The notes under the pieces are model-generated. The model was not told the DNA's origin, ran no database searches, and saw only the letters and a list, made by a program, of their open reading frames with translations. A stretch of 64,000 bases of DNA from Salinivibrio kushneri (lineage in GTDB: Bacteria; Pseudomonadota; Gammaproteobacteria; Enterobacterales; Vibrionaceae), in the NCBI RefSeq assembly GCF_027286325.1, contig NZ_CP114588.1, forward strand, positions 682,001-746,000. The letters are read 5' to 3'. Position numbers and translations under genes: made by a program. This document shows positions 3,964-30,410 of this stretch, one piece after another (within the stretch, counting starts at the first letter, position 1; each line of letters starts with the position of its first letter).

Positions 3964-5003
3964 GCTTTCAGCTCCACCTGTGCGTCGTCGCTCGTCGCGT
4001 GAGCAATATGACCCAACTGCCAGGCGGTTTCGCCGGCTTGATTTAACAGGGCAATCGCGTTTTCAGCTTCAGCCTGAGGCAGTGCAATCACAAGTCCCAC
4101 ACCACAGTTAAATGTTCTCAGCATTTCGTAGTCACTGACGTTACCTTTTTCTTGCAGCCAGTTAAACACAGCCGGCCATTGCCAACTGGTGTTGTCGATC
4201 ACTGCCTTGGTTCCAGCGGGCAATACGCGGGGGATGTTCTCCCAAAAGCCGCCACCGGTGATATGAGAAATAGCGTGTACCGGGGTCTGTTCAAGGAGCG
4301 TTAATACCGATTTGACGTAAATGCGGGTCGGGGCTAACAAGTGATTGATGAGTGGTTGGCCTTCTAGATCGTCACTCAGATTTGCTTGACTGACCTCGAG
4401 GATCTTTCGGATCAGTGAGTAGCCGTTTGAATGCGGGCCACTCGACGCTAGGCCAATCAAGGCGTCGCCATCGCTGACTTGGCGCCCATCAATGATTGCA
4501 GACTTCTCAGCAACACCGACACAAAAACCAGCCACATCGTAATCATCGCCGCTGTACATGCCCGGCATTTCTGCCGTCTCACCACCGATAAGGGCGCAGC
4601 CTGCTTGCTGGCAGCCTTGTGCAATGCCGGTCACAACGTCGGCGGCAACGTCAACATCCAATTTACCTGTGGCGTAGTAGTCGAGGAAAAAGAGAGGCTC
4701 AGCCCCTTGAACGATCAGATCGTTAACGCACATTGCAACCAGATCGATGCCGATAGTGTCGTGTTTATTGGCATCCAGTGCCAAGCGTAGTTTGGTACCC
4801 ACACCGTCTGTACCAGAGACCAATACCGGTTCTTTGTATTTAGTTGGCAATGAACAAAGCGCGCCAAAGCCACCTAGGCCTCCCATGACTTCGGGACGGT
4901 GCGTTTGTTTTACTACCCCTTTAATGCGGTCGACTAGTGCGTTACCCGCGTCAATATCGACGCCAGCGTCCTTATAGCTAAGAGATGATTGTTTACCGCT
5001 CAC
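3960..5003 (-). CDS. purM: Phosphoribosylformylglycinamidine cyclo-ligase PurM
   Basis: ATP-dependent AIR synthetase, the fifth step of purine synthesis. 347 residues. [13 protein letters not shown] at the N-terminus, the ATP-binding loop [14 protein letters not shown] and the motif [12 protein letters not shown] are all present. The start is GTG at 5001-5003 with AGGA seven bases upstream. First gene of purMN; a PUR box lies about 65 bases upstream, so PurR repression is likely. Confidence 0.97.
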
Positions 5004-5066: not shown

Positions 5067-5082
5067 AGGAAAACGTTTGCGT
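5067..5082. promoter_or_regulatory. PurR operator (PUR box) for purMN
   Basis: AGGAAAACGTTTGCGT matches 14 of 16 positions of the PurR consensus ACGCAAACGTTTGCGT. It lies in the purM-upp divergent region, 64 bases upstream of the purM start and about 105 upstream of upp. Primary target is presumably purMN; an effect on upp is possible. Confidence 0.85.
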
Positions 5083-29734: not shown

Positions 29735-29931
29735 GGTAGACTCCATTTTATTTTATCTATGGCCTTTTTCGTAGCAGGCCTATCTGGAATGGAAAAACAA
29801 TCCCAAGGATATCACTGTCTCTATGCCGACAACAGTCACTCAGAGAAACCGCTTATGCCAGCTTTATTAGGCGTTTTTAACGTAATTAAATTACACATAT
29901 GAACTTTTTGTGACTCAACTCACCATAATGC

Positions 29932-29960
29932 TTGTAAATAAATTACCATTGGGTTATTAT
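29932..29960 (+). promoter_or_regulatory. Sigma-70 promoter of a small transcription unit
   Basis: TTGTAA, then a 17-base spacer, then TATTAT at 29955-29960: 4/6 and 5/6 matches with ideal spacing. Start of transcription is expected near 29967. It reads toward the 30-codon ORF. Confidence 0.65.
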
Positions 29961-30074
29961 CTAGACATTGGCAACCAAGCTTGCCAGTTGTTCATGGAGT
30001 GAACCCGAGTATTCGCCTCCAAGGAACCGAGATAAATGTGAACAACATTGGTTTAAACTTGAGAGAGGTAAAAA

Positions 30075-30167
30075 ATGGAAGGCATGGTATCAAGCTATTA
30101 CTGGAACCAGCAGTCAGTCTATACACAAGGTTTTACGTATCCGGCACCGTTCGGGTACAGCAAGTAA
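30075..30167 (+). CDS. Predicted 30-residue aromatic-rich small protein
   Basis: ATG with the purine-rich ribosome site GAGAGAGG seven bases upstream. The 30-residue product begins MEGMVSSYYWNQQSVYTQGF and ends TYPAPFGYSK. It has five Tyr, one Trp and two Phe, no hydrophobic TM and no signal peptide. I do not recognise it. Support is the ribosome site, its own promoter and the terminator 64 bases after the stop. It could be a small protein, or a leader peptide, but the next gene has its own operator and is not an amino acid gene. Confidence 0.5.
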   Translation: MEGMVSSYYWNQQSVYTQGFTYPAPFGYSK

Positions 30168-30230
30168 GTTTTACGATTCCCCCGCTCTTACAGAGACATT
30201 TCTGATCCAGAAGCAAACGCTTTAATTCTG

Positions 30231-30258
30231 GCGCCACACAATGTGTGGCGTTTTTTTT
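30231..30258 (+). terminator. Strong intrinsic terminator of the small transcript
   Basis: CGCCACACA / TGTGTGGCG stem followed by eight T residues, 64 bases after the 30-codon ORF. It is well upstream of the permease gene, so it isolates the small unit. Confidence 0.9.
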
Positions 30259-30394: not shown

Positions 30395-30410
30395 ACGCAA
30401 ACGTTTTCCT
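30395..30410. promoter_or_regulatory. PurR operator upstream of the purine permease
   Basis: ACGCAAACGTTTTCCT matches 14 of 16 PurR consensus positions, 44 bases upstream of the permease start. It indicates purine repression of the permease and possibly gpt. Confidence 0.8.

Follow-up and report, generated by a model that had tools for sequence, protein, structure and literature searches.

A small transcription unit of Salinivibrio kushneri that very probably corresponds to vcdRP and carries a conserved leader element

The region between pepD and a purine permease gene of Salinivibrio kushneri raised the question of whether a gene lies there and, if so, which one; it was studied within the 64,000 nucleotides of DNA analysed in this work (the window). 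The first-pass annotation had taken it for a small transcription unit, complete with a promoter and a terminator of its own, and had recognised neither the RNA nor the 30-residue peptide.

Parts and identity of the unit

All of the parts were found base for base where this annotation had placed them. The sigma-70 type promoter, TTGTAA-17-TATTAT (29932-29960, + strand), was followed by a leader of 108 bases, if transcription starts near 29967, which contained the Shine-Dalgarno region GAGAGAGG (30061-30068, +). The ORF of 30 codons (30075-30167, +) came next, and an intrinsic terminator closed the unit (30230-30258, +; stem 30230-30252, T-run to 30258). With its start taken from the promoter and its end from the terminator, the transcript would span 29967-30258 (+), about 292 nt. 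Additionally, the CRP-type site TGTGACTCAACTCAC (29909-29923, +; pattern TGTGA-N6-TCAC) was centred about 50 bases 5' of this putative start. The sequence ACGCAAACGTTTTCCT, which we take to be the PurR-type operator consensus, occurred in two perfect copies in the window, at 5067-5082 (-) and 30395-30410 (+); the second is the PurR-type box before the purine permease downstream of the unit, as had been annotated.

The promoter pattern was found once, with 2.0 and 1.3 expected from two sets of shuffles, and was at chance level taken alone. The terminator was modestly above chance (1 versus 0.4 expected for the intergenic region). The CRP-type site was unique in the window, where 0.45 were expected and 30 of 100 shuffles contained one, and taken alone it could be chance. 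The single-sequence folds of the whole RNA (z -0.95) and of the leader (z -1.38) were not clearly more stable than those of shuffles. The promoter and terminator patterns alone were thus insufficient, and the unit was accepted as real because the ORF was conserved and its frame was under purifying selection.

The peptide matched the NCBIfam equivalog model NF053523 (VcdP) with 54.2 bits at a cut-off of 50, over residues 1-28. This was its sole NCBIfam match up to E = 1, and Pfam gave nothing up to the same E value. The peptide search and the synonymous/nonsynonymous comparison that the first-pass annotation had proposed both bore out a real ORF. At E up to 0.1, the peptide was found in 53 of 100 related genomes, namely 51 of 61 from its own family and two from family f11. 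The pN/pS of the eight Salinivibrio sequences, as a pooled pairwise count in which pairs are not independent, was 0.08 in frame versus 1.35 and 5.12 in the shifted frames. The same pooled measure was 0.39 in Vibrio (the 16 of 17 sequences that shared one length) and 0.24 in Aeromonas (seven of nine, the other two differing in length), with 0.74-5.12 in the shifted frames across the three genera. The vcdP reading frame is therefore under purifying selection. Both the frame and the ribosome site, whose loss from relatives the annotation had said would speak against it, were kept.

For further relatives, 295 genomes of the order were searched by an alignment-based method, and 37 of them matched: 19 Vibrionaceae, two of family f11, 15 Aeromonas (weak, E 8e-6 to 1.1e-3) and one of another family; the Aeromonas and f11 figures count matching genomes, whatever the number sampled. 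The match in the further family was dropped because of an internal stop. Together, 84 units were compared, 76 found via the peptide in both searches (the dropped one excluded) and eight via the leader element described below. The pepD gene lay upstream of 74/84 units and the permease downstream of 64/84, with short or cut loci scored as misses, and both neighbours were present in 20/20 Vibrio and 8/8 Salinivibrio units. A CRP-type site with up to two mismatches in ten, within 330 bases upstream, was found for 73/84 units versus 12.7 expected from mononucleotide shuffles. The pattern TTGTAA-N15-18-TANNNT was located upstream of 65/84.

VcdRP of V. cholerae was described in 2021 as a dual-function RNA, according to the accessible part of the report (PMC8672173). 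The same source gives a 306-nt RNA encoded between vc2278 and vc2279, which are the only names it offers there for the neighbours, with the VcdP ORF at 104-193 and a seed at 223-232 whose last four bases are cytosines. The transcription of vcdRP is repressed by CRP, Hfq is required, the 29-residue VcdP binds and activates citrate synthase, and VcdR lowers four validated targets, ptsG, nagE, treB and ptsHI (PMC8672173). In V. vulnificus, a nearly identical locus is expressed, as stated in the part of PMC9737408 that could be consulted. In transcript numbering, the window has its ORF from about 109, CCCCC at about 213-217 and a total of about 292 nt. The unit thus resembles the V. cholerae locus in where it lies, in its CRP-type site and leader, in the VcdP ORF with a C-run seed and a terminator behind it, and in a similar length (about 292 nt deduced, against 306). 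The homologue in Vibrio mimicus had 29 residues (60.1 bits to the VcdP model), the same layout and TGTTCACCCC at the matching place. The Salinivibrio peptide, in contrast to that of V. cholerae, has 30 residues rather than 29, and its seed, GATTCCCCC, is not identical letter for letter to the Vibrio seed.

On the strength of the VcdP equivalog model, the gene order, the layout, the CRP-type site, the C-run seed and the terminator, the locus is very probably the vcdRP of Salinivibrio, whose one transcript (about 292 nt) would have two outputs and whose promoter carries a CRP-type site. By its sequence, the unit is an already described RNA and not an unrecognised one, and the Salinivibrio copy is newly placed in VcdRP. 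The view of the locus as a peptide gene with a leader held for the ORF, but it left out the 3' part, which in V. cholerae also acts as a base-pairing sRNA according to the accessible text of PMC8672173. Transcription, translation, GltA binding, repression by CRP and the need for Hfq would hold in Salinivibrio as they do in V. cholerae. At its gathering scores, Rfam 15 had no match in the window, and two weak matches at the 3' end were far under threshold; VcdRP is thus missed by Rfam 15 at its thresholds. A dual-function RNA against sugar uptake with a small ORF 5' of the seed is also known from enteric bacteria as SgrS/SgrT, a comparison drawn by the VcdRP authors themselves; by their description, the protein target and the transcriptional control differ (PMC8672173, accessible part).

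The conserved leader and possible control by CsrA

The best conserved nucleotides of vcdRP were those of a leader element rather than of the published seed, and no function is assigned to this element in the accessible text of PMC8672173. In the window, the element was GCCTCCAAGGAACCGAG (30015-30031, +), the only exact match in the genome, and it contained the motif CANGGA (site 2). With the N left free, GCCTCCANGGAACC was found exactly in 153/247 Vibrionaceae genomes versus two for a reversed control pattern, a count in which not every match was confirmed as vcdRP. Further exact copies (two in genome G019, one each in G453 and G510) had neither a VcdP ORF nor pepD nearby and were set aside as chance. 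Upstream of the ORF, CTCCANGGAA, with one missing C allowed, was present in 84/84 units, and in 76/76 when those found via the element were left out. No VcdP unit that was read lacked the element, whether it came from Vibrionaceae, Aeromonas or family f11. The N was A in 47, G in 17, C in eight and T in three of the 76 units, one with the missing C being set aside; the pattern itself fixes the remaining letters, and it excluded no unit.

A hairpin, GUUCA-UGGAG-UGAAC (29990-30004, +), with GGA in its loop (site 1), ended 10 bases 5' of the element. The two GGA motifs of the window, at 29996-29998 (site 1) and 30023-30025 (site 2), were both kept in relatives. A search of the first 70 units, with 64 distinct leaders, for a hairpin with a stem of at least four pairs and a loop of 4-8 containing GGA, located between -125 and -15, was positive in 57/64 versus 18.1 expected from shuffles, and with at least five pairs in 46/64 versus 8.4. 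Among the seven misses, four had a GGA hairpin further upstream, and three (L040-L042) were without a hairpin. In alignment A2 (46 rows, 45 distinct), whose segments were chosen with a pattern in which a few positions are free, the site 1 stem was paired in 92.8% of cells, and two of its five pairs showed compensatory exchanges of C-G to U-A. Seventeen cells were changed on both sides versus 5.7 in shuffles, an excess that relatedness alone can produce. Slid versions of the whole leader structure paired in at most 47%, and two of five measures did not exceed shuffles. Site 2 had only a CUC/GAG stem, which was invariant, and RNAalifold predicted no consensus pairs on the leader alignment. An upstream ORF (R-L-Q-G-T-E) as the cause of the conserved element was set aside because, in A2, its would-be synonymous positions were invariant while the N position varied.

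The element could instead act on the ribosome site by itself. In the predicted fold of the window leader, the element lay on the Shine-Dalgarno region, and 7-9 pairs between the two were possible in many vibrios. It is conceivable that the element is an intrinsic lock only, with GCCTCC held on the vcdP ribosome site, and that its conservation reflects this fold and not a CsrA site. The predicted pairing was high in Salinivibrio, many Vibrio and two divergent Vibrionaceae units (genomes G012 and G017), but it was near zero in genus g3, Aeromonas and f11, where the element is nevertheless present. Additionally, leaders did not pair significantly better with their own ribosome sites than with foreign ones (3948 of 20000 permutations at genus level did as well), which gave no significant co-variation, and the lock leaves the fixed GGAAC half of the element unexplained. 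A lock as the universal mechanism was unsupported by these permutations and by the near-zero pairing in the three groups, and a lock as the sole function of the element appears rather doubtful.

The two GGA sites recall what is known of CsrA. Proteins of the CsrA type prefer a GGA that lies in a hairpin loop, and in an ANGGAN loop RsmE touches the A and the GGA while N is variable, as given in the accessible part of PMC7652899. For CsrA of V. cholerae to bind efficiently, an RNA has to carry two linked GGA motifs (PMC11633198, accessible part). Such a linked pair was present in the window leader and conserved in relatives, and csrA was present in the same genome. Because two GGA sites are conserved and CsrA of V. 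cholerae needs two, control of VcdRP by CsrA is proposed. Known precedents are the leader of E. coli ymdA, which CsrA activates by opening a structure that otherwise keeps the ribosome from binding (accessible text of PMC7492729), and the toxR leader of V. cholerae, which is activated by CsrA (PMC11633198). The VcdRP leader resembles both in its at least two GGA sites in an untranslated leader (PMC7492729, PMC11633198 and PMC7652899, as far as accessible), and it resembles that of ymdA in that the ribosome site of the window leader is held in a hairpin in the predicted fold. The leaders differ in that binding of CsrA to vcdRP is a proposal and in that only some genera are predicted to have a fold hiding the ribosome site.

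CsrA may thus bind the VcdRP leader, which we advance as a tentative proposal and with either direction of effect, since the pairing at the ribosome site was not better with its own partner and was not found in all genera. The leader would then possibly be a conserved CsrA-responsive region, in which CsrA spans the distance from the GGA hairpin to the CANGGA element and, by doing so, opens (or closes) the ribosome site of vcdP in many vibrios. The two-GGA leader would add CsrA control of VcdP synthesis or of RNA stability. If this is true, sugar uptake and the citric acid cycle would come under CRP, Hfq and Csr together through a single RNA. CsrA does not occur in the accessible text of the VcdRP paper (PMC8672173), nor VcdRP in that of the V. 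cholerae CsrA-toxR paper (PMC11633198). No literature linking the two was among the matches listed, and PMC9960880, as far as accessible, has both words in unrelated places. The link is directly testable with short RNAs, and the leader element, together with the spread of the unit to Aeromonas, is the part of this work that deserves specialist attention.

The seed, sugar-uptake targets and citrate synthase

Downstream of the ORF, the VcdR-type seed region (30172-30191, +) contained the four-cytosine feature as CCCCC (30179-30183). Duplexes were predicted between this region and the start regions of sugar-uptake genes in the same genome, which were identified with NCBIfam. The energies were -17.5 kcal/mol for nagE and -17.6 kcal/mol for ptsH, and only 1/49 ORF starts in the window scored equally well; this background consisted of mechanically chosen starts of ORFs of at least 200 aa, some of which are no genes. 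The values for ptsG (-8.3 kcal/mol) and treB (-10.2 kcal/mol) were equalled or bettered by 35 and 26 of the 49 background starts, respectively. Two other HPr-like loci (L236 and L237), whose start positions are uncertain, gave -9.4 and -16.7. The seed is thus predicted to pair with the starts of nagE and ptsH, while ptsG and treB do not stand out. This predicted lack of two targets is a further difference from V. cholerae VcdRP, whereas nagE and ptsH as predicted targets are a likeness.

Since the starts of ptsG and treB lack a good match to the seed, Salinivibrio might have kept VcdP while the sRNA function drifted or became weak, which would make the locus mainly a small mRNA. The seed also looks lost elsewhere, namely in a second copy of Photobacterium lipolyticum and in nine Aeromonas units, where CCCC was absent in three and in six followed the stop at a distance of about 62-65 bases, in the region of the terminator. 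However, the nagE and ptsH starts match the seed well, and all eight Salinivibrio units had a CCCC run within 75 bases after the stop. Drift of the sRNA in Salinivibrio is therefore considered unlikely. In the preferred reading of the locus as a dual-function vcdRP, the 3' part, VcdR, would base-pair, through its C-run and with Hfq, at the sites where translation of phosphotransferase genes begins, and would lower sugar uptake.

As judged from V. cholerae, the expected partner of the 30-residue VcdP is GltA, a citrate synthase of the type inhibited by NADH, which VcdP would bind and activate. In this genome, GltA matched citrate synthases whose structures are known (886.8 bits to 4e6y), and a phenylalanine was kept at the position that corresponds to residue 383 of chain 4jad_A, which we take to be E. 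coli GltA. F383 of citrate synthase has been linked to inhibition by NADH (PMC8672173, accessible part).

Spread of the unit among relatives

A non-coding leader or functionless chance ORF between two genes, a reading which the chance level of the promoter pattern alone would allow, is extremely improbable in view of the conserved peptide, frame, gene order and elements and of the published experiments on the V. cholerae unit (accessible part of PMC8672173). The vcdRP unit appears older and wider than Vibrio, being found in Salinivibrio, Aliivibrio, Photobacterium, Aeromonas and family f11. Aeromonas, Salinivibrio and Photobacterium are not mentioned in the accessible text of PMC8672173. Among the matches listed, which included the V. 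vulnificus paper (PMC9737408), no title dealt with VcdRP outside V. cholerae.

The Aeromonas units were convincing by context, since pepD adjoined 15/15, a CRP-type site was present in 15/15 and the leader element in 15/15. The permease was found beside none of the 15, and the promoter pattern TTGTAA-N15-18-TANNNT was found in none of them. Because two of their proteins scored 18.7 and 24.0 bits, below the VcdP cut-off of 50, these units are proposed as distant homologues and not counted as members by the VcdP model. In six of the Aeromonas units (L070-L075), the leader contained the element twice together with two more GGA hairpins, and the sRNA seed was apparently absent. If the CsrA proposal is true, the Aeromonas unit, which seems to have no seed and has as many as four GGA sites, would serve either as a VcdP mRNA under Csr control or as a sponge for CsrA.

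Outside Vibrionaceae, the two units of family f11 (L031 and L032) had a VcdP above the cut-off (67.6 bits for the G094 protein) and carried TTCATCCC in place of the vibrio TTCACCCC. Within the family, one g3 protein and one Photobacterium protein scored just below the cut-off (45.9 and 48.0 bits). Very divergent forms of VcdP were found via the leader element, with pepD adjoining, in two Vibrionaceae (L089 in G012 and L090 in G017); neither genome had a peptide match, and the VcdP model does not recognise their peptides. Two genomes of genus g3 (G009 and G026, 2.1 and 2.6 Mb) gave no match, while the larger g3 genomes mostly have the unit, and a loss of the unit with genome reduction is possible. 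The second vcdRP copy of Photobacterium lipolyticum (L097, about 4041-4190) had the leader element and VcdP without CCCC and lay away from pepD and the permease. By eye, a terminator-like hairpin followed soon after vcdP; upstream of the copy lay a divergent glutathionylspermidine-synthase-like ORF, and downstream of it an ORF for a TetR-type regulator.
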